Assembly (NCBI RefSeq): GCF_003609775.1
Contig: NZ_AP018049.1
Span: 434,001-498,000, forward strand
DNA: 64,000 nucleotides
Reading direction: 5' to 3'
Source: Prevotella melaninogenica
Lineage (GTDB): Bacteria > Bacteroidota > Bacteroidia > Bacteroidales > Bacteroidaceae
Shown: positions 31,995 to 52,207 of the stretch, in pieces
How the letters are laid out: each line of letters begins with the position of its first letter
Numbering within the stretch: position 1 is the first letter of the stretch
Position numbers and translations under genes: made by a program
The notes under the pieces: generated by a model
The model's input: only the letters and a program-made list of their open reading frames with translations
Database searches by the model: none
Told to the model about the DNA's origin: nothing

Positions 31995-32010
31995 ATCTTT
32001 ATCTTAAGAA

Positions 32011-32811: not shown

Positions 32812-32818
32812 TTAGTAT

Positions 32819-33037: not shown

Positions 33038-33050
33038 ACAACATAGAGAT

Positions 33051-33167: not shown

Positions 33168-33209
33168 GTTAAAAAAGCGTAAAGAGGTATGTTTCTCGTA
33201 AATTATGCT

Positions 33210-33217
33210 TACTTTTG
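33210..33217 (+). promoter_or_regulatory. Possible internal promoter before rpsM
   Basis: TACTTTTG fits TAnnTTTG and lies 48 nt before the rpsM start, in a 97-nt gap. The -33 region is not convincing, so this may be a weak secondary promoter for the alpha section. Confidence 0.4.
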
Positions 33218-33264
33218 CATGCTTTTTAGCGCTAAATGACATTTATTTATTTAATTATCAAACA

Positions 33265-33645
33265 ATGGCAATAAGAATTGTTGGAGTAGATTTGCCCCAG
33301 AATAAGCGTGGCGAAATCGCATTGACCTATATCTATGGTATTGGTCGAAGTAGTTCAGCAAAGATATTGGATAAGGCTGGTATTAGCCGTGACCTGAAGG
33401 TCAGCGAGTGGTCTGATGACCAGGCAGCCAAGATCCGTGAAATTATCGGTGCTGAATTCAAAGTTGAAGGTGATCTCCGTTCTGAGATCCAGATGAACAT
33501 CAAGCGCCTCATGGATATAGGTTGCTATCGTGGTGTTAGACATCGTAATGGTCTTCCTGTTCGCGGTCAGAGTACTAAGAACAATGCTCGTACCCGTAAG
33601 GGAAAGAAGAAGACTGTTGCTAATAAGAAGAAGGCTACTAAGTAA
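33265..33645 (+). CDS. rpsM: 30S ribosomal protein S13
   Basis: A 126-residue S13 ([51 protein letters not shown]) that contacts the P-site tRNA and 23S rRNA. The frame extends to 33205, but the conserved start is the ATG at 33265. Confidence 0.96.
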
Positions 33646-33665
33646 TTCTAAGGAGGAAATTAATT

Positions 33666-34055
33666 ATGGCAAAGAAATCAGCAACATCTAAGAAAAGAAA
33701 TGTAAGAGTTGACGCACTTGGACAGCTCCACGTGCACAGCTCATTCAATAACATCATTGTATCTTTGGCTAACAACGAGGGTCAGGTTATCTCTTGGTCT
33801 TCAGCTGGTAAGATGGGATTCCGTGGATCAAAGAAGAACACTCCTTACGCTGCTCAGATGGCAGCAGAGGATTGCTCAAAGGTAGCTTTCGATCTCGGTC
33901 TTCGTAAGGTTAAGGCATTTGTTAAGGGCCCAGGTAACGGTCGTGAGAGCGCTATCCGTGCGGTGAATGCGGCAGGTATTCAGGTAACTGAAATCGTTGA
34001 CGTTACTCCGTTGCCACACAACGGCTGCCGTCCTCCAAAGCGTCGTCGTGTATAA
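33666..34055 (+). CDS. rpsK: 30S ribosomal protein S11
   Basis: A 129-residue S11 ([53 protein letters not shown]) on the platform of the small subunit. The C-terminus is the typical invariant one. Confidence 0.97.
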
Positions 34056-34092
34056 TCACATCTTATAACAATTAAAAGAATTCATATTAATT

Positions 34093-34701
34093 ATGGCAAG
34101 ATACATAGGTCCAAAATCACGAATCGCACGCCGTTTCGGTGAGCCAATTTTCGGCGCAGATAAGGTATTAGCTAAGAGAAACTTCCCTCCAGGACAGCAC
34201 GGTAATAACCGTCGTCGCAAGGTATCTGAGTATGGTGCTCAGCTTGCAGAGAAGCAGAAGGCTAAATACACTTATGGCGTTTTGGAGCGTCAGTTCCGTA
34301 ATCTGTTCGACAAGGCTGCTAAGGCAGAGGGTATTACTGGTGAGGTTCTTCTTCAGAGCCTCGAGAGCCGTCTGGATAATGTAGTGTTCCGTCTCGGTAT
34401 CGCTCCTACTCGCGCAGCTGCTCGTCAGCTCGTTAGCCACAAGCACATTGTTGTTAACGGTAATGTCGTAAATATTGCTTCATATCAGGTAAAGGCTGGT
34501 GACGTTGTTGGCGTTCGCGAGAAGGCTAAGTCACTTGAGGTTATTGAGGCAGCTTTGGCTGGCTTCAACCACAGCAAGTATCCTTGGCTTGAGTGGGATG
34601 ATAACGCTAAGTGCGGTAAGTTCCTTCATCGTCCAGACCGTGCTGACATCCCTGAGAACATTAAGGAGCAGTTAATCGTTGAGTTGTACTCTAAACAATA
34701 A
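34093..34701 (+). CDS. rpsD: 30S ribosomal protein S4
   Basis: A 202-residue S4, a primary assembly protein and fidelity factor. [20 protein letters not shown], the S4 RNA-binding fold ([34 protein letters not shown]) and the C-terminal VELYSK are visible. It lacks the N-terminal Cys cluster of zinc-binding forms. Confidence 0.97.
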
Positions 34702-34715
34702 AATTCATTAAATTA

Positions 34716-35714
34716 ATGGCGATATTAGCATTTCAAAAACCTGATAAAGTAGTGATGCTGGAGGCCAATGACCATTTCGGCAAGTTCGAATTCCGTCCTC
34801 TTGAGCCTGGCTTTGGTGTTACCATTGGTAACGCTCTTCGCCGCATCCTCCTTTCATCGCTGGAAGGTTTCGCAATCAACACTATCCGTATAGCTGGTGT
34901 TGAGCACGAATTCTCTTCAGTTCCAGGTGTAAAGGAAGATGTTACCAACATCATCTTGAATCTCAAACAAGTTCGATTCAAGCAAGTAGTAGAAGAATTC
35001 GAGAATGAGAAAGTTAGTATCACCGTAGAGAATTCCACCGAATTCAAAGCAGGTGATATCGGTAAGTATCTGACTGGATTTGAAGTGTTAAACCCTGATT
35101 TGGTGATTTGTCATTTAGACTCCAAGGCTTCTATGCAGATTGATTTGACCATCAACAAGGGACGTGGTTACGTTCCTGCTGAGGAAAATCGTGAATACTG
35201 CACTGATGTAAACGTACTCCCAATCGATTCCATCTACACCCCAATTCGTAACGTAAAATATGCCGTTGAGCCATATCGTGTTGAACAGAAGACCGACTAT
35301 GACAAATTGGTTGTTGAAGTTACGACTGATGGTTCCATTCACCCAAAGGATGCACTGAAAGAGGCTGCAAAGATTCTTATTTATCACTTCATGTTGTTCT
35401 CTGATGAGAAGATTACTCTTGAGAATCCAGACCAGGAGGGCAACCAGGAGTTTGATGAGGAGGTTCTGCACATGCGACAGCTCTTGAAGACCAAGTTGAC
35501 CGACGCAAGTCTCAACTTGAGTGTTCGTGCACTCAACTGCTTGAAGGCAGCTGATGTAGAGACGTTAGGCGACCTCGTACAGTACAACAAGACGGATCTC
35601 CTTAAGTTCCGTAACTTTGGTAAGAAATCGCTTTCTGAGCTTGATGATTTGCTCGAGAGTCTGAATCTGTCGTTTGGAACCGACATTACAAAGTATAAAT
35701 TGGATAAAGAATAG
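34716..35714 (+). CDS. rpoA: RNA polymerase alpha subunit
   Basis: A 332-residue alpha subunit. The N-terminal dimerisation domain contains [20 protein letters not shown] and [20 protein letters not shown]. The C-terminal domain (about 265-325) has [20 protein letters not shown] and [20 protein letters not shown]. It nucleates polymerase assembly and contacts regulators. It lies between rpsD and rplQ, as in most bacteria. Confidence 0.97.
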
Positions 35715-35772
35715 TTGACGAGTTGTCTAAACGACAAGTTGACGGGTTTATCCACAACAAGTTAAAAACAAA

Positions 35773-36255
35773 ATGAGACATAATAAGAAATTCAACCATT
35801 TGGGTCGTACTGCTGACCACCGCGCTGCGTTGCTTTCAAACTTGGCAGTTGCTTTGATTCAGCACAAAAGAATCACTACGACTCTTGCTAAGGCAAAGGC
35901 TCTTAAGAAGTATGTTGAGCCGCTGATTACACGTTCTAAGAATGATACAACTAACTCACGTCGCGTTGTATTCCGTTATCTTCAGAACAAAGAGGCTGTT
36001 ACTGAGCTCTTCAAGGAGATTTCAGTAAAGGTAGCTGATCGTCCAGGCGGTTATACACGTGTTATCAAGCTCGGTACCCGTCAGGGTGACGCTGCTCAGA
36101 TTGCATTTATTGAGCTGGTTGACTACAATGAGAATATGGCTAAGTCTCCAAAGGCTGATGCTAAGAAGACTCGTCGTAGCCGTCGTTCTACAAAGAAGGC
36201 TGATGCTCCTGCAGAGGCTGTTGAGAACGTTGCAGAAGAGGCAAAGGCTGAATAA
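35773..36255 (+). CDS. rplQ: 50S ribosomal protein L17
   Basis: A 160-residue L17 ([60 protein letters not shown]). The core is about 120 residues, and the C-terminal 40 form a Lys/Ala/Glu-rich tail ([20 protein letters not shown]), a common Bacteroidetes extension. Last gene of the ribosomal block. Confidence 0.96.
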
Positions 36256-36282
36256 TCCGAATAGAATTTATCTCTATAATAG

Positions 36283-36318
36283 AAAACTCCCGGTACTTAA
36301 TGTATCGGGAGTTTTTAT
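36283..36318 (+). terminator. Terminator of the ribosomal block
   Basis: AAAACTCCCGGTAC (36283-36296) pairs with GTATCGGGAGTTTT (36302-36315) around a short loop, followed by TATTTTAT. A strong intrinsic terminator 28 nt after rplQ. Confidence 0.8.
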
Positions 36319-36596: not shown

Positions 36597-39572
36597 ATGA
36601 AGAATCTATTACTAATTATTTCTTTGTTTGTGACTTTAACTACTTTTGCACAAACTGGTGGTGAAATGAGGATTGCAACATCTACATCCGTAGGGCAAGA
36701 CTTTGAATTCCGTGTTACTCGAACCAATGATGCCAGTAAAGTTTATGTTGACTGGGGAGATGGTAATAAACAAGAGGCAACGTTAGAAGGATGGAGTAAT
36801 AATAAGAAGGTAACAGGAAAGTTACTGAAAGACACAATTATTGTTTATGGTGATTTTTCTGCTGTTGAGGTCTCTGAGGCAAAAGCAACATATCTTGCTT
36901 TTAAGAATCAGCCTAATTTAAAGCAAGTTGAAGCTAAGAGAAATGAATTAACCTACGAAGGTATTGATTTCTTAGGTGCCCCTAATCTCGTTACACTTGA
37001 CCTTAGCTATAATAAAATTACGCGTTTAGACCTGCGTAATTTTAAGAAGTTAACTAACTTTACAGCTAATCATAATACAATTTTGGCAACTGTTTTATTT
37101 CCAGATGGCAGTACAGAACTGCGTAATATCGACTTGTCAGATGGAGATATTACACACTTTTATCCTGTTAGTCTTCCTAACCTACGTTATCTTAATCTTG
37201 CGAACGGTAGTTTGTTAGAATTAGAATTGGGTAATAATTATCCAGAGTTACGTGATGTTGATATCACAGGGAATGTTGGAATAACATCTATTGATGTTAC
37301 GCAACAAACTAAACTTGAAAAGCTTCTTATAAAGGGAACGAAGATAACTGAGCTAAACCTTATTAATAACCCAGAGCTTATTATGCTTGATGCGTCTAAT
37401 ACCGACATTGCAAAGCTTGACTTAAGTGGTAATAAGAATGTAACAACGCTTGAACTCGGTGATTCTAAATTGTCTCGTTTAGATGTGTCTAACCTTGCAA
37501 ATCTTTATACAATTAATATTGATAATACCAAGATACAACGTATTGATTTATCTCACCAACGCTTTTTACGTAGTGTGAGCGTACGGAATACTGGAATACA
37601 ATTCCTTGATATGCATGGTGCTATCGGTACTAATCGACTTAATTACCTTGATATGCGTGACTGTAAGAATACTACTCCTCAGTCACTTAACTTCACCTTC
37701 AAAGCAATGCCGTCACATACAGGCAATTCTTATCGTACGAATGTTTTCCTATCAGGGACTAACTACGAACACGCCAATACTGGGATTTTAGATGATGATG
37801 CCGACAATTCCTATAAACTCGATGTTCATGGTGATGCTACTGCTTCTATGGATTCTGTTTCTATAACTATGCTAACATCCGAAAATGGAGGTAGTTATAC
37901 ATTAAGTCAAATCCCTGATGATGGGTATTTTGCAACTTATGAACCTGTTACTGGGAAAGTTTTGCCTGGTTTCCCAATTAAGATAGATGTTACAGCACCT
38001 ACTGGTTCAAAGTTTGTTGGTGTAGAGGTGAATGGCAAATTAATAGCTGATAGTATCTTTGTCGTGTCAGAAGCGGCAGTTGTAAAACCTGTTTTTAGTG
38101 TTTCTGGTGATGATGATTATATCAAACTAACAGTTCCTACAGGTATAGACCAACAGTATTTTCTTTCTGTTAATGGTGAGGATAAAGATGTTTCAATTGA
38201 CTGGGGAGATGGTGAACTTGTAAAAGTGAAGGTTAAATCGACTCCAACAACAGTAGAGGGGCAAACATCTGGAGCGACTGTAACGATATATGGTGCTGTT
38301 ACAGGAGCTGATTTCTCAAGTTATCCAGGTGTAGGTGTTGATAATAAGATAACTGCTGTCGATTTGAGTCATAATATTCATTTGCGTTCTCTTTCTACGT
38401 ATATGAATCCTATTACGTCCATAGATGTTTCTAAACTATCGAATCTTGAATCTCTTGATTGTTCTTATTCAGACCTTAGTTCCTTGGATGTTAGCAAGAA
38501 TAGTAAACTTATTAATTTACGTGCTTATGGTAATCAATTAGATAAAATAGATGTTAGAGGTGCTGTCGATTTAGCTTATCTTGATGTCAAAAATAACTGG
38601 TTAGAAAGCTTAGATTTAAGTCATAACAAGAAACTTGTTTATTTGAATATGAGTAGTAATGAGATAGAGGCGCTTGACGTGAAGGATATGCCAGAACTTG
38701 TAGAACTTTATGTTTCAAATAACAAGATTACGACTCTTGATGTTAGCAAGAATCCTGCATTGAAGACATTGCAGCTTTCTAATAATTCAGTCTCAAATTT
38801 AGACTTAAAGAATAATCTTCAACTTGTGACACTTACTGTTGATGGCAATAGATTAGAGGGGCTGGACCTTACGGGGCATGAACAATTGACCTATCTGAAT
38901 GTAGGTGGTAATAGATGGGATGCATGTACTTTAAATGATCTTTATTATAGCCTTTCACGTTATCCTAAACTTCAGAGTGGAAAGAAGCCACGTGGTAACA
39001 CGCTTTTCGTTCATGGTGAAAAAGCAGGAGAGTATAATGACGCTGAGCATGCAGAATCATCTATCGCTAAGTCGAAGGGTTGGACAATTGATTATGAGGG
39101 CGATGGAACTGGTTGTAACATGGCATATATTACAATACAGGAGCCTGAAAATGGAACGTTAAAGGTGTTTACAGCAGAGGGTGTTGAGGTTCTGACAGGT
39201 ACAAAGGGGGCAAAGAATACAGATCTTGTTATTAAAGCAATTCCTCTATCTGGATATAAGCTTGAAACTTTGACACTTAATGATGAAGAAGTAGATTCTC
39301 CTAATTTTAAGCTTACTTCTTCTGTGAAAATTGGAGCAATTTTCACGGTTTCATCACAAATAGAAGCTCCTACTACTGATGCACTTAAAGTGTTTGGGGG
39401 TAAGAATTATCTAAGTTTTATGACAGGAACGCCTACACACTTGCAAGTCTATACCTTAAGTGGCAAATTGATGTTCTCTACTATTGTAAGAGAGCATAAG
39501 ACGGTTAGTCTACCATCAGGTATCTATATCGTTAAAACGAAGGGCTATTCAAAAGTTGTAGCAGTCGAATAG
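36597..39572 (+). CDS. Secreted leucine-rich-repeat protein with type IX secretion sorting domain
   Basis: A protein of 991 residues. A signal peptide (LLLIISLFVTLTTFAQ) covers about 1-19. Two large modules each begin with a DWGDG motif (VYVDWGDGNKQ near 51, VSIDWGDGELV near 540) and continue into arrays of 21-23-residue LRR units such as LKTLQLSNNSVSNLDLKNN. A linker with internalin-like beta segments lies between them. The last about 70 residues (LQVYTLSGKLMFSTIV, VSLPSGIYIVKTKGYSKVV) resemble the T9SS type A sorting domain, so the protein is probably exported across the outer membrane and held at the surface or released. LRR surface proteins of oral Bacteroidales often bind host proteins; the ligand here is unknown. 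Monocistronic. Confidence 0.85.
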   Translation: MKNLLLIISLFVTLTTFAQTGGEMRIATSTSVGQDFEFRVTRTNDASKVYVDWGDGNKQEATLEGWSNNKKVTGKLLKDTIIVYGDFSAVEVSEAKATYLAFKNQPNLKQVEAKRNELTYEGIDFLGAPNLVTLDLSYNKITRLDLRNFKKLTNFTANHNTILATVLFPDGSTELRNIDLSDGDITHFYPVSLPNLRYLNLANGSLLELELGNNYPELRDVDITGNVGITSIDVTQQTKLEKLLIKGTKITELNLINNPELIMLDASNTDIAKLDLSGNKNVTTLELGDSKLSRLDVSNLANLYTINIDNTKIQRIDLSHQRFLRSVSVRNTGIQFLDMHGAIGTNRLNYLDMRDCKNTTPQSLNFTFKAMPSHTGNSYRTNVFLSGTNYEHANTGILDDDADNSYKLDVHGDATASMDSVSITMLTSENGGSYTLSQIPDDGYFATYEPVTGKVLPGFPIKIDVTAPTGSKFVGVEVNGKLIADSIFVVSEAAVVKPVFSVSGDDDYIKLTVPTGIDQQYFLSVNGEDKDVSIDWGDGELVKVKVKSTPTTVEGQTSGATVTIYGAVTGADFSSYPGVGVDNKITAVDLSHNIHLRSLSTYMNPITSIDVSKLSNLESLDCSYSDLSSLDVSKNSKLINLRAYGNQLDKIDVRGAVDLAYLDVKNNWLESLDLSHNKKLVYLNMSSNEIEALDVKDMPELVELYVSNNKITTLDVSKNPALKTLQLSNNSVSNLDLKNNLQLVTLTVDGNRLEGLDLTGHEQLTYLNVGGNRWDACTLNDLYYSLSRYPKLQSGKKPRGNTLFVHGEKAGEYNDAEHAESSIAKSKGWTIDYEGDGTGCNMAYITIQEPENGTLKVFTAEGVEVLTGTKGAKNTDLVIKAIPLSGYKLETLTLNDEEVDSPNFKLTSSVKIGAIFTVSSQIEAPTTDALKVFGGKNYLSFMTGTPTHLQVYTLSGKLMFSTIVREHKTVSLPSGIYIVKTKGYSKVVAVE

Positions 39573-39620: not shown

Positions 39621-39662
39621 CAATCCCGAAGGTTATTATAAAACTTTCGGGATTGTTTTTTG
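39621..39662. terminator. Bidirectional terminator
   Basis: CAATCCCGAAGG (from 39621) pairs with CTTTCGGGATTG (to 39655), followed by GTTTTTTGG. It lies between the LRR gene and the convergent minus-strand gene pair, and can serve both. Confidence 0.75.
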
Positions 39663-39674
39663 GCATAAGTGTTT

Positions 39675-40193
39675 TTATTTTAACATCCTTGGCACATAGC
39701 CATTGTGGCGGAACCATTTATGCGCCCAGTTAGGTACCATAAAGATATAGCCAGAGATGTCTTCGTGCGGCGCGCAATCAAGTTGGTTACCTATGATGTC
39801 TGCTGCTTCTTGTACAGATGTTCCGTATAAACGTGCTAATTCTTCGCGTATGAGCGTATATGTGATGTTACGGATAGTAGCAGCGTTGATGGGTTGATTT
39901 CCTAATAGAGCCAATAATTCTTCTTTAGAAGGGATTTTCACCTTTGGCCCTACACGTAGCCCTTCAAAGCAGTATTCCCCATCTACTTTATACATCGTAA
40001 ACCCATCTCTGCTGTTACGTTCGTTACATTCCTCTGCCATTTGTCGTGCAATAGGGTGGGTGATACGTTGTATTATCTCTGTGATAATGGGTTGATGGCG
40101 TAATTGCCCGTATGTATACCCTTCACCATTGATACCACCAGAACCTGATGGGATGTCTGAGTCGGAGATTATGCATAACTCTTTTCTTTCCAT
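39675..40193 (-). CDS. Hypothetical protein
   Basis: A 172-residue soluble protein, not recognised. N-terminal CIISDSDIPSGSGGINGEGY looks like a flexible Gly/Ser region; the middle contains DGEYCFEGLRVGPKVKIPSK; the C-terminus ends HEDISGYIFMVPNWAHKWFR and then HNGYVPRMLK. The His/Trp-rich end could be a binding or catalytic motif, but no family match could be made by eye. It lies 10 nt after the gene at 40204 on the same strand, so the two are probably co-transcribed. Confidence 0.65.
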   Translation of the reverse strand: MERKELCIISDSDIPSGSGGINGEGYTYGQLRHQPIITEIIQRITHPIARQMAEECNERNSRDGFTMYKVDGEYCFEGLRVGPKVKIPSKEELLALLGNQPINAATIRNITYTLIREELARLYGTSVQEAADIIGNQLDCAPHEDISGYIFMVPNWAHKWFRHNGYVPRMLK

Positions 40194-40203
40194 TTATTCT
40201 TGT

Positions 40204-40869
40204 TTAAGTATTCTGATTAAATTTTAGTTCAAACTTTGTGTAGAAGTCCCTAACATAAATGAAGTCGAAGATGCTGAAGTTTGTATGGTCATATAGATTG
40301 TGAAAATGCTGATTAAGGTGTAGGTCGTAACTCCATTCTCGGTCTAACCCTTCATTCCAACAATCATCAGCATCTTGCATTCCCATGAGTTCCATTTCAG
40401 TCTTGTCATCTTCCTCTCCATGATATCCGTCGAAGCTCATACAGCAACCATATTTGCAATAGATGTCGTTATAACTTTCATCATTGAGAATCTCCCATAT
40501 CATTTCTGATTCTTCTCCTTGAAAAGGATTACTTTTCGAGTATTGTCTGTCTTTTCCTAAGAAGATTTTACACTCTACACCCTCAAACAGCAAACTACTT
40601 CCACAATCTGCCAACATTTTCTTTGTATTGTAATACAACTCTCTGCTTTGTTGATAGTTTTTAATTACTACTTCTTTAAGTCTTTCATTGAATTCCTTTA
40701 ACAACTGATAGTTTTCATCTGTTGGCTTGAATAGTTGGTTAAGGAGCATTCGACGATTAAAGATGAGTGCTTCCATCTTCTCGTCACATGTTATTAATTG
40801 TGGGTTCTCGTAATAGGTCAGAAGTAAAGACTCAGTCTTATTGATTTCGCGTTTTACTGTTTTATTCAT
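40204..40869 (-). CDS. Hypothetical protein
   Basis: A 221-residue soluble protein of unknown family. The N-terminal half is helical and lysine/asparagine-rich; the C-terminal half is acidic and aromatic (GYHGEEDDKTEMELMGMQDA, then NQHFHNLYDHTNFSIFDFIY). The ATG at 40869 is chosen; a TTG two codons upstream also opens the frame. No promoter of the usual type was found right upstream. Partner of the gene at 39675. Confidence 0.65.
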   Translation of the reverse strand: MNKTVKREINKTESLLLTYYENPQLITCDEKMEALIFNRRMLLNQLFKPTDENYQLLKEFNERLKEVVIKNYQQSRELYYNTKKMLADCGSSLLFEGVECKIFLGKDRQYSKSNPFQGEESEMIWEILNDESYNDIYCKYGCCMSFDGYHGEEDDKTEMELMGMQDADDCWNEGLDREWSYDLHLNQHFHNLYDHTNFSIFDFIYVRDFYTKFELKFNQNT

Positions 40870-40974
40870 TCTCAATATTAAATCTGTTTATGTGTGTAAT
40901 AGATATTATTTAATATCGTTTTCTGAAAACATCTACACAAAAAATTTTAAAGACTTAATTATGCCCTTTTGTAA

Positions 40975-41013
40975 CAAAAGAGTACGACAGAAGATTACTG
41001 ACGTACTCTTTTG
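40975..41013 (-). terminator. Terminator of the dynamin-like operon
   Basis: A 12-bp perfect stem (CAAAAGAGTACG with CGTACTCTTTTG), 34 nt past the last operon stop on the minus strand, with a T-rich tail in that direction. Confidence 0.75.
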
Positions 41014-41046
41014 ATGAATTATTCTTGGTTTCAAAGTCTTTATAAT

Positions 41047-43143
41047 TTACGAAAGTTCTATTTGCAATGCTTGAATATCTTCTATTTGCTTTGCTATATC
41101 CCTTTTTGTTTCTTCTAAGACTTTACATTCTTCTTTTGCATTATGTAGTTCTTGTTCTTTGTTATTAATTTTTGAACGTACACTTGTTAATTGCTCTTGA
41201 AGTGGCTCAATCAGTTTATTAATAAACCTATTACGAACATACTCGATAATCTTATCTTTGCTCTTGAAAGCCTGATTTAAGTATGGTTCAGGGTTGAATT
41301 CCCGACTTATAGAGTTAATATTGTCTGATACTTCTTTTACCTTTGCACTGTGGTTTATTAAATTCATAGTTCCCAATGTGTATACATTAAGGAACGTTTG
41401 GAATATCGAGCCAATAATATCACTCCAAGTAATCTGTTCTTCATCATCATTTGCAAAAGAAAATAAATCATTTTCCTCCATTTCCATATTTATTTCCCTC
41501 TGAGTGGATTTTACGAAATCTCGATTGTCAAAATCAGGTATATATTTTAAAAGTATATCTTCTGTGTCAGAGAAAAACTCTTCGATGCTACGTTTTATTT
41601 TTCTTTCGCAGTCGACAGAAATATTTTCTGTTGCACGTTTCAGTTTTCTTGTTTTTAAATCTTGAAATTCCGTATCAAGTCTTGGACTTATACTATCAAA
41701 GCTCTTAAAAATTCCCCATTCGTTTTGTACCATATTAAGCATTCTACGGCAGCTTGCATCAACAATGTCTTCTAACTCGTATCTTCCTTTTCTTACAAGA
41801 TTACGAATCTCTGCGTCAATATCTTTTTCTAAAGAATCAATTTTCCTTGATAACCTTCTATTTGCTTTTGAAAGATTTTCCGCTCTTTCTTCTATATCAG
41901 AATCTGGAGCTAAAAGAAGAGTAATCTTGTTAGAAAGTAGACTGAGTGCGTCTTCATTTTCAACTCTTAGTTTCTCTCCTGCTGCAAGTATTGCATTCAT
42001 TGGCTTTTTGAAGAGGATTTTTCCTTTCTCATTGTCAATCAAATTCTGTACAGCTTTGCTAAACTGATCTATGTGGCTCCACTTGTACATCTCAGGCTGT
42101 GTACTAATCCCAAAGTTAGTGCAATGACGTTTCCATGCAAATTCAAAGCTATCAGAAGAGGTGATTTTACACATTGGTAATTCAGAGAGTAACGCCATCT
42201 CTGCGGATAGTGGTATGGGCTCAACATCATTTAATATCTCAACAAGTGTATTATCATTACATTCACGACAGGCTTTCTTTATTTCCTGTTTTACATAATC
42301 CTTAATTTGGTTTTCATCCTCAGGGTTAGTTTCGCTGCAATATGGTATATCGTATTTATTAATACCTACAAGGACTTTACCAATTCCGCATTGGCGTACA
42401 TTCTTGAAGATAATGTCTCTGTCTGTTGCATCAAATGGTCGACCTGCATAAAGCATCATGATGACAACATCTGCTTTTGCAAGAAATGCTTTGGTTCGTT
42501 CTTCGCGAGAAACAATTGGATCGTTGAATCCAGGAGTATCAACGACTTCAACTCCCTTTAAACATTCATTAGGATAATAGATAGTGACAGACTTTGTTAT
42601 AGAGACATATTTACCCTCAGCTCCAACGTATTCTATGAGTTGATCAAAACTATCTTCTTTTGTCTTACCAAGGTAACTATCCAGTGATGTCCCTAATTTG
42701 TTAGCTTTAGAAACCAACTCTTTTGCTGCTTTTATTTTTGAGGCATCAAGTGTGTCAGTCGCTTCACTCTCTTCTCTTAAGGCTTGCATCTTTTGTTCAG
42801 CCCATTCGTCAGCAGTATAAAATTCAGCTACGATATGTTCTTTCTCTCCATACGTAATAACTGAAAGTGCAGCAGTCATAGGTGTAGTTGCTGCAGGAAG
42901 AACATCATCTTTAAAAACAAATGAATTTAAGAAGGTAGATTTTCCACATTTCATCTGTCCAATGACACCAATAGTTAGAGTGTCCTTTTCTATTTTTTCT
43001 TTTATCTCTTCTAAGGAGATTATCCCTTTGTGCGTTGCTTCTTCTTTTGTTGCAGGAATCCATCCATATTTTTCAGCTTTTGTTGCGAATGCAATGAGTT
43101 GCTGTTTTTTTGCTTGTAACTTTTCAAACATGTTGTGTTCCAT
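41047..43143 (-). CDS. Dynamin-family GTPase (third of the operon)
   Basis: A protein of 698 residues. The GTPase motifs are G1 GQMKCGKS (62-69), a threonine-rich G2 region at about 86-91, G3 DTPGF (202-206) and G4 NKYD (262-265). A long insert between G2 and G3 (about 105-180) is unusual. Long helical stretches follow (about 380-480 and 640-698). A hydrophobic patch (SDIIGSIFQTFLNVYTLGTM, about 575-595) could be a membrane paddle. This arrangement fits bacterial dynamin-like proteins, which bind and remodel membranes on GTP hydrolysis. It is 3 nt downstream of the second dynamin gene. The specific role is unknown. Confidence 0.8.
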   Translation of the reverse strand: MEHNMFEKLQAKKQQLIAFATKAEKYGWIPATKEEATHKGIISLEEIKEKIEKDTLTIGVIGQMKCGKSTFLNSFVFKDDVLPAATTPMTAALSVITYGEKEHIVAEFYTADEWAEQKMQALREESEATDTLDASKIKAAKELVSKANKLGTSLDSYLGKTKEDSFDQLIEYVGAEGKYVSITKSVTIYYPNECLKGVEVVDTPGFNDPIVSREERTKAFLAKADVVIMMLYAGRPFDATDRDIIFKNVRQCGIGKVLVGINKYDIPYCSETNPEDENQIKDYVKQEIKKACRECNDNTLVEILNDVEPIPLSAEMALLSELPMCKITSSDSFEFAWKRHCTNFGISTQPEMYKWSHIDQFSKAVQNLIDNEKGKILFKKPMNAILAAGEKLRVENEDALSLLSNKITLLLAPDSDIEERAENLSKANRRLSRKIDSLEKDIDAEIRNLVRKGRYELEDIVDASCRRMLNMVQNEWGIFKSFDSISPRLDTEFQDLKTRKLKRATENISVDCERKIKRSIEEFFSDTEDILLKYIPDFDNRDFVKSTQREINMEMEENDLFSFANDDEEQITWSDIIGSIFQTFLNVYTLGTMNLINHSAKVKEVSDNINSISREFNPEPYLNQAFKSKDKIIEYVRNRFINKLIEPLQEQLTSVRSKINNKEQELHNAKEECKVLEETKRDIAKQIEDIQALQIELS

Positions 43144-43146
43144 ATC

Positions 43147-45051
43147 TTATAGTTCTTTAGTTATTTTTTTGTATTGTTCTAAACATTTACTGATACTCTG
43201 CTGTGCTAATCTCATATTGTATAACTTAGAATATGTTTTTTGAGTTTTTTCCGAATTATCTCTAAGATTATCTATTTTAGGGGCAATTGCTTTAGGTCTT
43301 TCTACAGCAATGTTATCAAGAAGTTGGATTAATTGACCATATTCTTCTTCAGACATTTCATAACGATCGCTACTGAAGAAATGGGTTTCCCATCGAGGAA
43401 TTTGAAGAACAGCCTCACAATCCTTGTATAGCAAATTGAAGTCTTCAGCTAAATCATCAATAATCTTATTACCTTCTTCTCTCTCTTCTTCAGATGATTT
43501 TTTTAGTTTACCTACTTTCTCTTCGCGTTCTTTGAGTAGATATTCTAAGTCTTCTTTTATTTCAGAAATAAAATTCTCACGAGATTCTATCTTTTTGACA
43601 CTATGAATAGGTGTCATAATATCTTCGATTGATGCTTTAGATGAGAATCTAATGAACTGCTCAATTTTAAGTCCTTCTTTTTTCAAGGTTTTTTGAATAA
43701 GTTCTTCAACTTTTTGAATTTCGGTTTCAGACTTCGTGTCAACTTTGTTAATGACAATATATAATGGTTTATTAAGTTTCTCCTTGATAATAGAGATTGA
43801 ACTTCGATTTACGGTTCCATCATTTACATCAAATACCCAAAAAAGTGCATCGCACTCATTAATGACATCAATGGTGCGGTCACGGTCTTCGCTGTCATTA
43901 GAATTGAATCCTGGTGTATCAAGAATACTTAATCCATTGAGATTAGGATTTTTATACGTCATTACAAAGTATTTTATAAGTGAAGATACACCTTTTATTT
44001 GGTCAAGAACTTCTTTTGAAACTTTTTTAAATGTGTCTTCAAGAATTTCTTTACGCCTTCCGTCACCTGATATAAAACTATAGGATACAACAGAACCTCC
44101 TGCAATATATGTAGGAATAGCGGTTGTAGCCTTTGTACTAACAGGAAGTTCTGGTATGTCAGGATTATCTTGAGTCAGAATTCTATTGACGATAGAAGTT
44201 TTACCAGCTGAGAACTCTCCTACAAATGCTATTGTTCTTTTCCCATCCAACCAGCTTTTACGCTTAGTAGCAGTCCATTGGTCACAATGGTCTATGACGT
44301 ATTGCTTCTTAGGAACAATAGCTTGCTTTCCTATAAACTCTTTCCAAGGTATATCATAACGATTGTATAAATAAGAGTTTAAATCAAGATATGATCCTTT
44401 TACAAAAGATTCAAAAGTGTTAATTCTTTTGTATAACTTCTGTGTATCTTCTGTACTGATTTCTTTTGCGGAAAGAATCTCCTGAATGAAATCCAAAGAT
44501 CCCATCTTGATTTTTAGTTCTTTAACTTTCTCTTCAAGTGCTTGACGAGCAGAAGAAAGCTCCTCTCTAAGATTTGTTGTTTGCTTTTTTTCTTTTCTTA
44601 GATTTTCTTGAAGTTCCTCATTTTCTTTCTTCTTAGAGTCGATTTTATTTTTCAAGTCAGAGATATCATCTTCATTCTCCTCAAGTTCTTCTTCAAGGTC
44701 CTCTATCTTTTTTTTCAATTCCTTTGTTTGCGCTAATTGTTCTTTGATAGAGTTGTCTGATTTTCCATCTATAGCATTCTTTAGCTGTTCATCAAGCTGT
44801 GCACATTGTTCATTTGCTTCTTTCAGCAAAGCCTTGTATTTTGACTCAATTTTGTCCAACTCGTTCTCAAGGTCAACGCTGTTAGTAAGTTTCTTTTCTG
44901 TTTCAGCTAATTTGGTCTTCAACCTCTCATTCTCTACTGAAAGTTGAGAAGCCAAGGTTTTACTATTTGATGTCTGACCTGAACAATAAAGCCAAATGAA
45001 AACCGCTATAATAATATCTACAATTATGTATATGATTATTGTTGAATCCAT
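43147..45051 (-). CDS. Membrane-anchored coiled-coil dynamin-like GTPase (second of the operon)
   Basis: A protein of 634 residues. An N-terminal membrane segment (IIIYIIVDIIIAVFIWLYC, about 5-23) is followed by a long coiled coil (about 32-185, many Leu/Glu/Lys heptads). The GTPase domain has G1 GEFSAGKT (278-285), a threonine-rich G2 near 306-313, G3 DTPGF (378-382) and G4 NKVD (435-438). The rest is helical. The anchor plus coiled coil before the GTPase domain is unlike eukaryotic dynamins and unlike its two neighbours. It is followed by the third GTPase after 3 nt and preceded by a small coiled-coil protein with a 1-nt gap. Probably the membrane-tethered member of a GTPase complex. Confidence 0.8.
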   Translation of the reverse strand: MDSTIIIYIIVDIIIAVFIWLYCSGQTSNSKTLASQLSVENERLKTKLAETEKKLTNSVDLENELDKIESKYKALLKEANEQCAQLDEQLKNAIDGKSDNSIKEQLAQTKELKKKIEDLEEELEENEDDISDLKNKIDSKKKENEELQENLRKEKKQTTNLREELSSARQALEEKVKELKIKMGSLDFIQEILSAKEISTEDTQKLYKRINTFESFVKGSYLDLNSYLYNRYDIPWKEFIGKQAIVPKKQYVIDHCDQWTATKRKSWLDGKRTIAFVGEFSAGKTSIVNRILTQDNPDIPELPVSTKATTAIPTYIAGGSVVSYSFISGDGRRKEILEDTFKKVSKEVLDQIKGVSSLIKYFVMTYKNPNLNGLSILDTPGFNSNDSEDRDRTIDVINECDALFWVFDVNDGTVNRSSISIIKEKLNKPLYIVINKVDTKSETEIQKVEELIQKTLKKEGLKIEQFIRFSSKASIEDIMTPIHSVKKIESRENFISEIKEDLEYLLKEREEKVGKLKKSSEEEREEGNKIIDDLAEDFNLLYKDCEAVLQIPRWETHFFSSDRYEMSEEEYGQLIQLLDNIAVERPKAIAPKIDNLRDNSEKTQKTYSKLYNMRLAQQSISKCLEQYKKITKEL

Positions 45052-45052
45052 A

Positions 45053-45445
45053 CTATCCTATTTTTTCTTTCAAAAGAGAAATTTGAGCCGCTTGTGCTTC
45101 ACATGCATCTTTATATTCTTTTACTTTACGTGCAAGTTCGTCATTCTGTTGACGAAGGGACTTTAACTCGAATTTAGCTTTATCGAGTTCGTCTTCTAAG
45201 TCTTCTTGTTCTTCATTGTTCTCTTTTGCCTTTTTTCGGATTCTTTCCAATTCAGCCATCAGATCCTCTACTTGACGTTCAGCCTCTTTGTTACGCTGAC
45301 GGAATTTTTCATTTTCAGCATAAAGTGTTTCTAACTCTCTTTGTTTATTATCATACTGTGAAGAATTCCCTAAGATTTTGTCTTTAAGAGCTACTCCAGC
45401 AACGCCACCGACAACAAGTCCACCAATTAGTTCTATCATTTTCAT
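45053..45445 (-). CDS. Small membrane-associated coiled-coil protein
   Basis: A 130-residue protein. The first 20 residues are Gly/Val-rich and hydrophobic (MKMIELIGGLVVGGVAGVAL); residues about 35-128 form a continuous coiled coil rich in Glu, Lys, Leu and Gln. No enzymatic motif. It fits between two dynamin-like genes with gaps of 1 and 5 nt, so it is likely a structural partner, perhaps pairing with the coiled coil of the protein encoded at 43147. Confidence 0.75.
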   Translation of the reverse strand: MKMIELIGGLVVGGVAGVALKDKILGNSSQYDNKQRELETLYAENEKFRQRNKEAERQVEDLMAELERIRKKAKENNEEQEDLEDELDKAKFELKSLRQQNDELARKVKEYKDACEAQAAQISLLKEKIG

Positions 45446-45450
45446 TTGCT

Positions 45451-47268
45451 TTATATAGTTAATAATAATGTTTTATATTCTCGTAATTGACTTATTCTTT
45501 GTTCAAATTGTTCTTTTTGTTCTTTACGTTCTGTTTTCAATTGATTAAGAGAATTTGTTTTCTGGTTAATAATTTCAGTAGCTTCTTCATTCAAAGAAAC
45601 CCTAACTATATTAACTAATTCTTGCGAAATCTCCTTTAATCTGTTATTGAAATCGGGTGATAAAGATGAGTCTATATAATTATGTACTGCGCGAACACGT
45701 TGTGGCTTGGAAAGGAGTTTATCTGTAACGAAACCAACCATGCTGTCTATTAGCCCCTTGTCGCTTCCAACTTTTCCCGATAGAGTTTGTGCTCCATTTT
45801 CAATAGTTTCATATTTTTGAGTAACTTTTGTTGTAAACGTAACTATCTCCCCTATTCTGTCAGCAGCTTTCTGGTTAGAAACAATACTAACTATATCAGA
45901 AGCAGCGTCAATAGCATCAATAGCTTTTCCACTTGCTAATGCTCCACCTGCTGCGGCTGCTCCTCCTGCAGTTGCTGCAACAGCAGCAACAGTTCCAACA
46001 GCGGCTGCAGCAATTACACCCACCTTTATCCATTGGTCATATTCATGTCCCATTCCATTCAAATCCATATTATAAGTTAAGCCTGTCATTTGGATGTTTG
46101 AGAGGTTCATACTTTTTAGAGATTCTAATGAAATGCCATCTTCTTTTTCACGCTCACTCTGAGTTCTTGCTTTCTCACAGATAGCAGCTTGTATACCATT
46201 TTTGTAGCTATTCATTAATAATGAAGCTGTATTATTAATAGTTGTCATTGCTTCATTGTCGAAATCTGAACTTTTTCCTGTTACAAGCGTGTTAAGTTTA
46301 TCGAATATTATATCTTCAAATTTACGTGTGGTTGTGCGTTCCTGTTCATCAATATCATCGGCAACAGAATCAACTAAACGTTCTATTTGTCGTTTGACTC
46401 TGTCAAGTTCTTGCTGACACATTCTGATAGCTTCGTCAGTGTTTTCGTCGGATAAAGAGGCAGACATTAGTTCTTCAACCTGCTTGAGCATCATTTTTGA
46501 TATATTTTTCAGGCGTTGATCATCAACACGTTTCAGAATATCTTTCTTTTCCTTCTGAATAGAATCAAGTAAGGTGTATAACTCTTCGAGTGAGTCTTTT
46601 GTTGCAGATACAACAGCTACTTGCTTTAATGGAATTTTACAGTTTTTGCAGATATATTCTTTAGCAGACTCAATATCTTCCTTTGACTTAGTGTCACTTT
46701 TGGTAAGTATCAAATAAATCGGGCGTTGAGATAATTTTATCATCTCAATAAAGTCTGTCAGTGAACGTGTTATCTGCTGGTTTATATCGGTAACAAGTAA
46801 TATCCCATCAGCCTTAGGTAGAAAATTGACAAGTGTTTGTTTGTGTTGAGGATCGGGAGATGAAAGTCCAGGGGTATCAACAATTATAGTAGAAGCAGGA
46901 ATGCGTTTAGAAGTGTCAAATACTGTCACAACTTTTGCATCTGCTAATTCTTTGTTTTTTAAGTCATTTATATTTTCTACTTCTATACAGTTACCATTGG
47001 CATCAATTACTTCTGCGTGACAAGAATCACTGCCAAAATGCACTTCGTAAATTGTTGCTGTTGTAGGTTTAGTAGCACTTTCCAAACCCTTACTATCAGT
47101 CAGTGCATTGATAAGCGTTGTTTTACCCGAGCTAAATTCGCCGACTAAAGGAAGGATAATGTTTGCATTTTCCTGCTTAGACCGCAATTCTATTAATGTT
47201 AACTCTTCAACTATGCTGGTTAGTCCTATGGACTCTGCAATAGAACGTAAGTCTTCAATCTTATTCAT
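45451..47268 (-). CDS. Dynamin-family GTPase (first of the operon)
   Basis: A protein of 605 residues. G1 is GEFSSGKT (43-50), G2 lies in TKPTTATIYEV (about 66-76), G3 is DTPG (131-134) and G4 is TKSD (189-192). A helical region follows, then a Gly/Ala-rich hydrophobic stretch (VGVIAAAAVGTVAAVAATAG, about 408-430) that could insert in membrane, and a C-terminal helical bundle. This is the compact bacterial dynamin-like architecture. It starts the series of three GTPases after the small gene at 47296 (27 nt gap). Nucleotide type is inferred from the G4 motif. Confidence 0.8.
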   Translation of the reverse strand: MNKIEDLRSIAESIGLTSIVEELTLIELRSKQENANIILPLVGEFSSGKTTLINALTDSKGLESATKPTTATIYEVHFGSDSCHAEVIDANGNCIEVENINDLKNKELADAKVVTVFDTSKRIPASTIIVDTPGLSSPDPQHKQTLVNFLPKADGILLVTDINQQITRSLTDFIEMIKLSQRPIYLILTKSDTKSKEDIESAKEYICKNCKIPLKQVAVVSATKDSLEELYTLLDSIQKEKKDILKRVDDQRLKNISKMMLKQVEELMSASLSDENTDEAIRMCQQELDRVKRQIERLVDSVADDIDEQERTTTRKFEDIIFDKLNTLVTGKSSDFDNEAMTTINNTASLLMNSYKNGIQAAICEKARTQSEREKEDGISLESLKSMNLSNIQMTGLTYNMDLNGMGHEYDQWIKVGVIAAAAVGTVAAVAATAGGAAAAGGALASGKAIDAIDAASDIVSIVSNQKAADRIGEIVTFTTKVTQKYETIENGAQTLSGKVGSDKGLIDSMVGFVTDKLLSKPQRVRAVHNYIDSSLSPDFNNRLKEISQELVNIVRVSLNEEATEIINQKTNSLNQLKTERKEQKEQFEQRISQLREYKTLLLTI

Positions 47269-47295
47269 AATAATTTAAGTTGTATTGTATTCTTA

Positions 47296-47514
47296 TTATA
47301 TCTTTTCTACATTTAAATACGCAGGGGTCAAAGCATTCATCTTCTTTAAGTCTACACCAAAGTGGTTAAAGAAGAGACTGTTTATTTTCTCTCGTTCTTG
47401 ATTGTTTGAAAGAATGTTTGAAAACATCGAAGCATACTGGATGCTCATGCCTGGTTCTATAACCATACCATCACAGTGCTTTGACATCTTCACGGTAATT
47501 TTGAAAAGTACCAT
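47296..47514 (-). CDS. Small DUF6140-like protein, first gene of the dynamin operon
   Basis: A 72-residue protein. It starts MVLFKITVKMS, has an EPGMSIQYASMFSNILSNNQ centre and ends FGVDLKKMNALTPAYLNVEKI-like. This pattern recalls small DUF6140 proteins of Bacteroidales, whose function is not known; the assignment is from memory of the pattern and not certain. It is the first gene behind the operon promoter and could be a regulator or a substrate-binding partner. Confidence 0.65.
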   Translation of the reverse strand: MVLFKITVKMSKHCDGMVIEPGMSIQYASMFSNILSNNQEREKINSLFFNHFGVDLKKMNALTPAYLNVEKI

Positions 47515-47578
47515 ATTTTGTTTTTAAGGTTTACTAATACTCGAGTGGCTGACTCGTGTTATTCTATAATATCTGTTG

Positions 47579-47609
47579 CAAACGTAAAGGCTTTGTTATG
47601 AATAGCAAA
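47579..47609 (-). promoter_or_regulatory. Promoter of the dynamin-like operon
   Basis: On the minus strand TTTG (47609-47606), 19 nt, TACGTTTG (47586-47579); a leader of about 55-60 nt precedes the first start. A close match to the Bacteroidetes consensus. Confidence 0.75.
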
Positions 47610-47747: not shown

Positions 47748-47972
47748 TCAGGTATTATGCTTTTTACCCTCGTCTATACTTTCCCATATTTCTTTATATA
47801 GTTTTGCCTTTCCTGTCCCCAAGCCTAATATTCCAACAGGGTATGTGTGGAAACTTTTGCATTGGGGACATTGTAATGGTGCGGTGAGTGCGGTAGCTCT
47901 CCATTCAACATCAAGTCCCCAAAACTTTTTAGAACACTCGTTGCACTTAAATCTTGTAAATCCTCTAATCAT
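47748..47972 (-). CDS. Small zinc-ribbon protein, paralogue 1
   Basis: A 74-residue protein with two Cys pairs, FKCNECSKKFW at 9-19 and LQCPQCKSFHT at 33-43, spaced as in a rubredoxin-like zinc ribbon. It ends in a charged helix (AKLYKEIWESIDEGKK). It shares the MIRG start, both CxxC pairs and the Y-K-x-I-W-E end with the gene at 48646. Function unknown; such ribbons commonly bind nucleic acid or protein. Confidence 0.7.
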   Translation of the reverse strand: MIRGFTRFKCNECSKKFWGLDVEWRATALTAPLQCPQCKSFHTYPVGILGLGTGKAKLYKEIWESIDEGKKHNT

Positions 47973-48645: not shown

Positions 48646-48882
48646 TTAGACTTCGTTAAGTTTATTTTTGTCCATTTCTTCCCAAATCTTTTTATAGATG
48701 TCACGGTCGTTGCCGAAAGGGTAAAAGCCGAATATACTTAGACTTGGGATATAAGTGTGTCGACTGTTACACTTTGGACAAGGCATTGGGACAGAGAATG
48801 CACTTGCATTGTACTCAATGTCGAATGCGCGAAAGGTGTTGTTGCAGTTGTCGCATGTGAAAGTGATATGACCTCTAATCAT
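48646..48882 (-). CDS. Small zinc-ribbon protein, paralogue 2
   Basis: A 78-residue protein with CDNCNNTFRAFDIEYNASAF near the start and PMPCPKCNSRHTYIP, giving two CxxC pairs as in the gene at 47748, and a similar Y-K-K-I-W-E-E-M end. About half the positions match the paralogue. The intervening 0.7 kb holds the structured RNA and the small membrane gene. Function unknown. Confidence 0.7.
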   Translation of the reverse strand: MIRGHITFTCDNCNNTFRAFDIEYNASAFSVPMPCPKCNSRHTYIPSLSIFGFYPFGNDRDIYKKIWEEMDKNKLNEV

Positions 48883-49446
48883 AAGTGATATGATTTTAAA
48901 GTATAAATATTTTATTATGATATAATGACCTTAAAGCGTCATTCTTTGCTTCTATTGCTGATGTCTTGTTGCTCATCACACGTGGTGCTGTTGGTTAGCA
49001 CGAGTAGTGCTGTTGGTTAGCACCAATGGTGCGGAGGCTTAGCACGTCGTAAGATGTTGTGGAGTTAGGGTGCAACGAGTTGTTAGGAGTTGTTTTGCAG
49101 CATTCAGAATACGTCTTAACTGATTGATAGCTTTTGTCTGTCAAGATATATTTGCTTACGAATAATGCTTGGTTTTTGTTCATTTTCTTTAACTATTTTG
49201 TTTCTGTTTGCAAAATAAATGCTTAATTGTGAGAGGCACAAAGGATTTAATTTGTATTTTTGTGACAGAGTAGCTTTATTGTTGCAATTAGTAATATATG
49301 AAGAAAGGAAGTTTAGATCTGTATGAATTGTCTTTTTGGGACATTCTTTAAGGATTGAACTTTGTAGCTGTAAAAACTATTGAAGATGAAAAGGAGGTGA
49401 TCTGTCAGATAGTTTATTACTTTCAGATAAGATGATAGTGTAAAGG
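48883..49446. other. Intergenic region with dyad repeats
   Basis: No convincing gene; a 62-codon minus-strand frame at 48995-49183 runs through the repeats and is not called. Contains the 22-nt repeats at 48972-49059 and a TATTTTTG at 49255-49262 that may be a -7 element for the gene at 49447, though without a matching -33. Confidence 0.5.
48972..49059. repeat. 22-nt-period dyad repeats, locus 2
   Basis: Four contiguous units start at 48972, 48994, 49016 and 49038, each exactly 22 nt, with the core (G)TTAGCAC...GTGCTGTTG. GGGTGCAAC follows at 49068, a string also found after locus 3. Confidence 0.75.
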
Positions 49447-50889
49447 ATGAAAGATATGAATAGAGATGATAAGACTGTTAAGATGATAGATAAGCGGGAT
49501 GAAACTCAGACAATAATGTCTAAGGCTACTGCTGAAGACGAGGCAATAAAGGCAAAGCTGAATGCAGTGTATCGCCTTAGACTATTATATAATAGTGGTG
49601 AAGAGCTGTGGAAACATATAGGAAAATCGGGTAGTGGAAACAATTCCTTTGGTCGTGTTGGTGGAAAAGATGCTTTTTTACGCAGAGCCGTATTTCACGA
49701 GTTGGAGCGTGAATGGTATGACGAAACGGGCATTATTCTTAATGGGTTGTTAGATGCTTATGCACAAGCAGCAAAGTTTATGGAGAGGTATAATCCTTTG
49801 CATGAGGATGAAGAAGAGGGTGTGAGGATTGAATATTGTGAGCAAATCATCAATGTTTGTGTTTTTGATGATGAGATAACAGATAAGCATGGTGCGAAGA
49901 TGAGGGAACTTCTTTTGCGTTTGCAGGAAGAAGATACTTATTGCCTTGCGGTTTTGTTGTTGATGTTGCTTGGCGTATTGCCTTTGTCTTTTGATACTCG
50001 ACAAGGGGATGCGAAGCAGATGAAGGGGAAATACGAGCAGGTTTATAACTTCTTTCTGCGCGTATGTCATCGTAATATTCTTTTTGTGCAAACGCCAAGG
50101 ATGACACTCTTTCATAAAGCTTTAAAGGAGTCGGAAGAGAAACTGACACGTATTCGATTGGTTAAGTTTACGGCTGATGTACTTTGCAATCTGTCAATTC
50201 TTGCAAGTGCAGAGCAGATAGCAGAGAATGGACGGCGTGTTCAGTGGGACCAGTTGTATCCTAATCTCGATGGTTATTGGTTGAGTGAGCAGCATAGTGA
50301 GCAATGTCCAGACTATTGGCAAGTAGAAGAATTAGCAACAAGCTACCAGTTCTGTCATTATTTTCAGAAGGAAGGTGAGGCTGGTAAACTGCATCAGCAA
50401 GAGTTCACTGTAAGCTTCTATAGTAATGGTGAGGATTATGCTTGTGTGCAGCACCCCCGTTCAGTATTGCAATGGTTGAACAATGAAAAGCTGTCAAAGG
50501 ATGATATCACTTATCCACACTTTGTTTTTTGGGGAGGAGAAAAACCAACGAAGATAGCTTTTGAGTCGTTTATGATGGATGTGTCGTGGTTTCGTCCGAT
50601 GCAATTGACACGTGCAAAAGATGATTGGAATCCTCCAATAGAAAAAGGAATGAAGGTGACAAATGACTTTGAAGCTTATTCCTATACTTTCTATCTTGGT
50701 CTGGAAGCTATTACACCAGATTTTATCTCTGTAAAAGATGAGAATGGAAAGTCGTATAGAGTTTCTGTTTCTGAGCATGAAGAATTAAGAAACTGTACGT
50801 TGAATGATGCAATCGGTATTATCACTTGGGCTGATAAACGTTATATAGCATTTGATCATCTGATGTTGTATCTTCCGATAGAGGAATAA
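49447..50889 (+). CDS. Hypothetical protein of 480 residues
   Basis: A large soluble protein, not recognised. The N-terminal half (about 30-240) is helical, with EELWKHIGKSGSGNNSFGRV and a hydrophobic stretch LAVLLLMLLGVLPLSF (about 167-182). The C-terminal half (about 260-480) is rich in aromatic residues and beta segments (PHFVFWGGEKPTKIAFESFM). No signal peptide. The start at 49447 could also be the ATG at 49459 (MNRDDK). Monocistronic by position; convergent or parallel neighbours offer no functional hint. Confidence 0.7.
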   Translation: MKDMNRDDKTVKMIDKRDETQTIMSKATAEDEAIKAKLNAVYRLRLLYNSGEELWKHIGKSGSGNNSFGRVGGKDAFLRRAVFHELEREWYDETGIILNGLLDAYAQAAKFMERYNPLHEDEEEGVRIEYCEQIINVCVFDDEITDKHGAKMRELLLRLQEEDTYCLAVLLLMLLGVLPLSFDTRQGDAKQMKGKYEQVYNFFLRVCHRNILFVQTPRMTLFHKALKESEEKLTRIRLVKFTADVLCNLSILASAEQIAENGRRVQWDQLYPNLDGYWLSEQHSEQCPDYWQVEELATSYQFCHYFQKEGEAGKLHQQEFTVSFYSNGEDYACVQHPRSVLQWLNNEKLSKDDITYPHFVFWGGEKPTKIAFESFMMDVSWFRPMQLTRAKDDWNPPIEKGMKVTNDFEAYSYTFYLGLEAITPDFISVKDENGKSYRVSVSEHEELRNCTLNDAIGIITWADKRYIAFDHLMLYLPIEE

Positions 50890-52067: not shown

Positions 52068-52164
52068 GTATAGTCTGGTAGTTTTCTTCATCTTCGTTAG
52101 CTATTAGCGTGTTATTATTGTTCTATCATATTCTTTCTTCCCATCTTCAAGCGACGTGTTGATG

Positions 52165-52207
52165 CTTAGCACATGTCGTGCTGTTGGTAAACACCAATGG
52201 TGCTAAG
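52165..52207. repeat. 22-nt-period dyad repeats, locus 3
   Basis: Units begin at 52165 (CTTAGCACATG...) and 52187 (GTAAACACCAATGGTGCT, 21 nt), with a degraded further copy. GGGTGCAAC follows at 52239, as after locus 2. Confidence 0.65.

Follow-up and report, generated by a model that had tools for sequence, protein, structure and literature searches.

Bacterial dynamins have mostly been described as pairs (PMC4159319, PMC6104087). The Campylobacter proteins Cj-DLP1 and Cj-DLP2 form hetero-oligomers and tether membranes (PMC6104087), and in Bacillus subtilis DynA two dynamins are fused in one protein (PMC4159319, PMC6104087) that is linked to phage resistance and delays phage lysis (PMC8844932). 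LeoABC of enterotoxigenic Escherichia coli has three adjacent dynamin-like genes, one of them coding for a membrane-anchored product; LeoC (206 amino acids) and LeoB (572 amino acids) are a single dynamin split in two, and LeoABC is therefore not a three-dynamin set (PMC4159319). The anti-virus system Eleos consists of two dynamin-family GTPases, LeoA and LeoBC, encoded side by side. Here we describe an operon of Prevotella melaninogenica (contig NZ_AP018049.1, positions 434,001 to 498,000 of the forward strand; this stretch of 64,000 nucleotides is the window, and coordinates refer to it unless another locus is named) that codes for three different dynamin-like GTPases, A, B and C, together with a small coiled-coil protein K and a DUF6140 protein D. 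The three-dynamin gene block travels through distantly related bacteria and is probably related to a known anti-virus system while being itself undescribed.

The operon consists of five minus-strand genes in the order D-A-K-B-C with successive gaps of 27, 5, 1 and 3 nucleotides (Table 1). An earlier note, made from the letters of the window alone, had given the same genes and gaps, and the open reading frame coordinates agree with it. The five genes form a genuine operon, with a GC content of 0.346 as compared to 0.399 in the window and 0.429 in the ribosomal region at 29321-36316. The single promoter named in that note was found as well: the pattern TTTG-N19-TAnnTTTG, which we take to be the Bacteroides-type promoter consensus, lies ahead of D and has 13 matches in the window against 4.1 expected from shuffles, with another minus-strand match inside C (42111-42141). 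With 30 matches against 36.9 expected, sigma-70 promoters are not in excess in a generic scan of the window. The same holds for a terminator pattern scan of the window (5 found, 5.5 expected), and the strong hairpin after C is absent from its list.

All three GTPases exceed the Pfam Dynamin_N gathering cut-off (27 bits) and are thus members of the dynamin superfamily. As had been claimed, each keeps its G1, G3 and G4 motifs: GEFSSGKT, DTPG and TKSD in A, GEFSAGKT, DTPG and NKVD in B, GQMKCGKS, DTPG and NKYD in C. Across the homologue families of A, B and C (49, 47 and 47 sequences) G1 and G3 are nearly universal and G4 is present in most. One A homologue is truncated, and in some others of this family G4 is degenerate. 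The long insert attributed to the third GTPase shows in the G1-G3 spacing, which is 140 amino acids in C, 88 in A and 100 in B. The membrane features predicted for the other proteins recur among their homologues. With a threshold of 1.6 for the mean hydropathy of 19 residues, an N-terminal hydrophobic helix is present in 42 of 46 B homologues, and in B the G domain comes after some 220 residues of coiled coil. In K a glycine-rich N-terminal helix reaches at least 1.6 in 31 of 49 homologues and is followed by a coiled coil. The Gly/Ala hydrophobic patch of A recurs in 40 of 46 homologues. AlphaFold2 models were made for A and for a neighbouring gene, E. The model of A has a predicted local distance difference (pLDDT) score of 70, below 50 at residues 409-518, and a predicted template modelling (pTM) score of 0.47; it contains a G domain, long helices and a C-terminal helix of 100 residues. 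Its best solved Foldseek matches are IniA (E = 1.5e-14), Nostoc BDLP (3.1e-14), SynDLP, the Campylobacter pair (5owv/5oxf), MxB and mitofusins, with template modelling (TM) scores of only about 0.3; the superfamily of A is therefore clear and its overall shape is not. Mycobacterial IniA is the best match of A in the PDB by sequence and by fold; its operon context differs from the present one. C matches 5owv_A over residues 44-654.

How close is the operon to the described systems? The PADLOC LeoBC profile gives C 66.3 bits over residues 43-691, i.e. nearly full length, and the LeoA profile gives 49.6 bits for C, 40 for B and 32.5 for A, whereas true LeoA proteins score 498 and 524 bits and true LeoBC proteins 263, 320 and 344 bits. 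Thus neither A, B nor C is a LeoA or LeoBC subunit. The search against defence-system profiles that the earlier note had called for returned superfamily-level scores and assigned no described system. In the opposite direction, true Eleos proteins (loci L136, L138 and L201; L and G numbers are our own handles) have no match to the A, B and C profiles, and in a G-domain tree those of L136 and L201 belong to none of the three clades formed by A, B and C. Note that Eleos profiles built from these three loci favour finding Eleos there; PADLOC is an independent check. Low scores, three dynamins and K instead of two dynamins without K, and separate phylogeny show that the operon is not Eleos, although it may still function like Eleos. 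LeoABC has a split dynamin (PMC4159319), whereas here the motifs G1, G3 and G4 are all present in A, in B and in C. Cj-DLP1/Cj-DLP2, whose structures are matched by C and by the A model, are a pair, and the accessible part of their description mentions neither a third dynamin nor an anchored coiled coil (PMC6104087). On the NCBIfam model of DynA, A scores 44 and B 54 bits, the cut-off being 1600. Membership in the DO-GTPase conflict system (PMC7159879) was rejected, as the only hit is DO-GTPase2 at 15.7 bits on A (cut-off 27). No three-dynamin operon of this kind was found in the titles and abstract openings searched, and no mention of DUF6140 in the literature searched; bioRxiv preprints and much of the subscription literature lay outside these searches.

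Scanning species genomes with the A profile revealed 132 relatives, the best 80 of which were kept. Loci L067-L094, which contain single large GTPases, were left out of the conservation set; these large single dynamin-like proteins, mainly from Eremiobacterota, are a separate family. The remaining 52 loci are L015-L066. Forty-seven of them, from Bacteroidota and Spirochaetota apart from L066 (Hydrogenothermaceae), contain A, B and C, and in 46 the genes stand in the order A-K-B-C on one strand, L066 having B-A-C. K lies between A and B in the same 46 of 47. Among the 46 we counted L025 (Tannerella forsythia ATCC 43037, 10001-12933), where A is split in two pieces about 1.1 kb apart. Four of the five incomplete loci end at a contig edge, and the fifth, L038, is a contig of 4.5 kb. 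Median intergenic gaps are 5 (A-K), 2 (K-B) and 3 (B-C) nucleotides, with outliers. A chance cluster of genes was rejected on the grounds of this order. The earlier note had proposed a dedicated unit, to be doubted if its five genes were not kept together in related genomes. The multi-dynamin part of that claim stood, as the order is kept, and the part concerning D did not: D is directly 5' of A in 21 of 47 loci and anywhere in the locus in 27, and DUF6140 genes also occur without the GTPases, which rules out an essential part. DUF6140 is a loose companion of the operon.

A, B and C have also been inherited together. For 46 sets the mirror-tree distance correlations are 0.863 (A-B), 0.907 (A-C) and 0.936 (B-C), the permutation maximum being 0.357; 22-27 of 43 splits are shared. 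Spirochaete loci (L040, L048, L058 and L062) are nested within those of Bacteroidales. Shared distances and splits together with this nesting indicate that the unit moves and evolves as a set, and it is not confined to Bacteroidales. L057, labelled Bacillales, stands beside a Paludibacteraceae locus in the tree and is probably misbinned.

Diverged relatives of C pointed to seven further complete three-dynamin operons, four in plasmid lineages and three in Bacteroidaceae. In the Bacteroidaceae loci (L134, L160, L161) an A-like gene is followed by a B-like and then by a C-like one. The Photobacterium plasmid trio lies between traU and traN, and a Calditerrivibrio plasmid carries three dynamin genes. 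On a Pseudomonas aeruginosa plasmid the trio follows a WYL gene and is beside a helicase and an EH-signature protein (PADLOC ZorC, 702 bits). Of 5426 E. coli genomes, 5 contain DNA nearly identical to that of the E. coli plasmid trio, each time plasmid-borne. In all seven sets one protein each is best matched by the A, B and C profile, the profiles being those of the window's families. In a tree of G domains from 13 of the 46 sets of the window's class, the seven further trios and L066, all 21 A, 21 B and 21 C proteins fall into three groups by type (local supports 0.83, 0.97 and 0.996), to which a Moraxella plasmid alone adds foreign members, its A-like and C-like proteins. From such type-wise clades across distant trios, the set looks old and its members non-interchangeable. 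Trios occur in Bacteroidota, Spirochaetota and Pseudomonadota, with single examples in Deferribacterota and Aquificota, and all K genes found belong to the class of the window. Three other clusters looked incomplete and are not counted among the seven: L162 has B- and C-like genes with no A-like gene found, L195 (the Moraxella plasmid) A- and C-like genes with no B-like gene found, and L135 a C-like gene and one unassigned GTPase of 560 amino acids in a fetched stretch that starts inside the cluster.

Distribution of the operon is patchy and horizontally moving, as is typical of anti-phage systems. No orthologue of A was found in 35 genomes of the genus, 4 of which gave weak matches (best 27% identical), and P. 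jejuni of the same genus carries the operon. C is present in 3 of 247 genomes of the order and matched in 12 of 329 of the family, the own genome included in both counts; seven of the family matches exceed 500 bits and five are diverged at 130-163 bits. The P. jejuni locus (L015, matching the end of a G500 contig exactly) has the block x2-x1-C-B-K-A-D, which is 93% identical to window positions 39647-47526 and directly follows ribosomal genes (rplQ). The gene names used for this site (rplQ, rpoA, SusCD-type, radical SAM, transposase, nuclease-like) were assigned by eye from translations. In G365 and G401 both flanks of the site recur (83-96% identical) around different payloads: G365 has a SusCD-type pair plus an AAA/coiled-coil/nuclease-like set, G401 a radical-SAM gene and transposases. 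Since the same flanks hold other payloads, the operon occupies an exchangeable chromosomal site. A second P. jejuni contig combines the other flank with a 668-amino-acid dynamin-like protein and a HerA-type ATPase; we infer that the two contigs are one site.

The question is whether such a unit serves defence. Support for that reading is indirect and comes from mobility, patchiness, low GC content, the swappable site, plasmid relatives, WYL flanks, Eleos beside gene E relatives and ZorC beside the Pseudomonas trio. WYL genes flank 8 of 30 loci and 0 of 22 control regions from the same genomes; L188, L190 and L192 had been removed from the controls before counting, being short or part of the contig that carries the operon. 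The WYL profile was built on seeds from such loci, as were those for gene E, K and the other small genes, which makes finding them there more likely. Among 120 of 333 flank genes PADLOC recognises WYL in 5 and Pfam in 4. The 92 PADLOC families touched by these 120 genes include, among the 25 listed, WYL with 5 members and Cas3c with 3.

Several observations weigh against a role in defence. The other listed PADLOC families of the flanks, among them type I methyltransferase, AbiEii and candidate PDC models, have one member each. In the control regions 120 of 236 genes touched 34 families, and the 25 listed are likewise single hits, including REase_III and PycTM. With mostly single hits on both sides, a clear defence island around the operon is not supported. 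Flank Pfam families, as far as the 25 of 115 listed go, are mainly metabolic or transport, colicin-DNase and WHH nuclease having 2 members each. ZorC of the Pseudomonas plasmid is short, and zorA and zorB are not listed nearby. Gene E is not specific to the operon, and the hydrophobic patch of C is weak (at least 1.0 in 24 of 46 homologues, at least 1.6 in 9). Neither phage records nor viral contigs gave a match to the operon; plasmids yielded only diverged G-domain matches, and near-complete carriage by any of the three was rejected.

On balance we see about an even chance that the operon is an inner-membrane, GTP-driven anti-phage system, a three-dynamin cousin of Eleos. A wider proposal, to which we give a little less than an even chance, is that an old, obligate machine of three dynamin paralogues, spread as a set through the phyla named above, constitutes a distinct membrane-level antiviral class, sister to Eleos, whose Bacteroidota/Spirochaetota branch would have gained K as an anchored coiled-coil scaffold. 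The same proteins could instead serve as accessory envelope maintenance with no dedicated anti-phage role, resealing or remodelling the inner membrane when antibiotics, bile or peptides stress the cell, or making vesicles. DynA, Cj-DLP1/2, IniA and LeoABC have been tied to membrane surveillance and repair, drug tolerance and vesicle release (PMC8844932, PMC6104087, PMC4159319), and the listed flank families are mainly housekeeping. A low-GC, movable block in 3 of 247 genomes, with a WYL link, plasmid relatives and gene E relatives that also stand beside Eleos, fits this poorly, and we consider envelope maintenance rather unlikely.

A device for conflict with other mobile elements or neighbouring cells, by plasmid exclusion or by killing under stress, would account for the Photobacterium trio between transfer genes and for the AAA/nuclease-like sets and the HerA-type ATPase among the alternative payloads of the site. 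Pfam and NCBIfam profiles recognise no toxin domain in any of the five proteins of the operon, and such a device is in our opinion improbable. That the operon is an Eleos member with an extra dynamin was already disfavoured: the nearly full-length LeoBC match of C speaks for it, the gap to true Eleos scores (263-524 bits) and the separate clades speak against it, and its probability is very small.

If the operon is indeed an anti-phage system of the inner membrane, it might work as follows. B and K would be fixed in the inner membrane via their N-terminal helices, and their cytoplasmic coiled coils might form a scaffold under it. A, with its putative dynamin trunk and its Gly/Ala patch, would insert into the bilayer, and C, the partner similar to LeoBC and Cj-DLP, could complete the hetero-oligomer, A and C assembling on the scaffold through contacts of G domain and trunk. 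Membrane disturbance or damage during phage attack may trigger GTP-driven assembly, and GTP hydrolysis would remodel the membrane at the site of damage or of the phage. As a result the inner membrane might be sealed and lysis delayed, as with DynA (PMC8844932), or the membrane might be disabled. This predicts that all three GTPases are required, the read-out being phage lysis or membrane integrity. If true, a deeply conserved trio with fixed roles would extend the pair rule for bacterial dynamins, offer a hetero-oligomeric dynamin for study in anaerobes and connect the biology of dynamins with the way host-associated bacteria defend themselves against viruses.

Table 1. Features of the operon and its neighbourhood in window coordinates
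Feature	Coordinates	Strand	Evidence or remark
Presumed Bacteroides-type promoter, TTTG-N19-TAnnTTTG	47579..47609	-	65 nucleotides upstream of D
D, DUF6140 protein, 72 amino acids (small first gene, as in the earlier note)	47296..47514	-	PF19637 48.6 bits, cut-off 27
A, dynamin-like GTPase, 605 amino acids, Gly/Ala hydrophobic patch	45451..47268	-	Dynamin_N 69.4 bits
K, 130 amino acids, N-terminal glycine-rich membrane helix and coiled coil	45053..45445	-	Hydropathy; position between A and B
B, 634 amino acids, N-terminal membrane helix, coiled coil, GTPase domain	43147..45051	-	Dynamin_N 60.2 bits at 274-434
C, dynamin-like GTPase, 698 amino acids, long G1-G3 insert	41047..43143	-	Dynamin_N 74.9 bits
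Strong hairpin 3' of C, possible terminator	40970..41022	-	Folded alone: free energy -20.6 kcal/mol, z -7.7
x1, 223 amino acids	40204..40875	-	No Pfam/NCBIfam family; accompanies block in P. jejuni
x2, 172 amino acids	39675..40193	-	No Pfam/NCBIfam family; accompanies block
zn1, small zinc-ribbon-like protein of the site	47748..47972	-	Weak matches only
zn2, relative of zn1	48646..48882	-	
Gene E, 480 amino acids, divergent neighbour	49447..50889	+	No Pfam/NCBIfam family over cut-off

Gene E and the swappable site were absent from the earlier note. In 15 of the 52 loci, 12 of them among the 46 with complete A-K-B-C, a gene E relative adjoins the operon, which suggested a fixed part of the system; this was weakened by relatives in 28 of 329 family genomes, 6 of which have any C match, and was rejected. 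In the order sample gene E is limited to the own genome (1/247). Of 24 fetched loci, 6 have dynamin-like genes next to a gene E relative, and in 2 of these they are true Eleos pairs. The loci of this family are varied and include Eleos pairs, dynamin clusters and AAA and hydrophobic-protein gene sets; the family may mark a payload site. The model of gene E has no Foldseek match below 0.001, a second look giving middling barrel matches.

Full Eleos pairs (LeoA, LeoBC) in L136 (13754-17231) and L138 (11617-15637) are near gene E and DUF6140 relatives, without the A/B/C trio. The own genome has a second DUF6140 gene (L103 9339-9557; G000 C1, about 593350-593556) with no A/B/C-type gene within the 19 kb fetched. 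Among nine fetched dynamin-free DUF6140 loci (L103, L106-L113) four have a WYL regulator (L109, L110, L112, L113).

Genes related to x1 cluster in L015, L037, L039 and L052; by profile only L015 and L037 of the 52 loci have them. Between the ribosomal genes and the block the window contains a gene for a leucine-rich-repeat surface-type protein of 991 amino acids (by eye; 36597-39572), whose position relative to x1 and x2 varies between the window, G365 and P. jejuni. A 47-bp repeat at 48985-49032 has further copies at 17277-17323 and 52156-52203.

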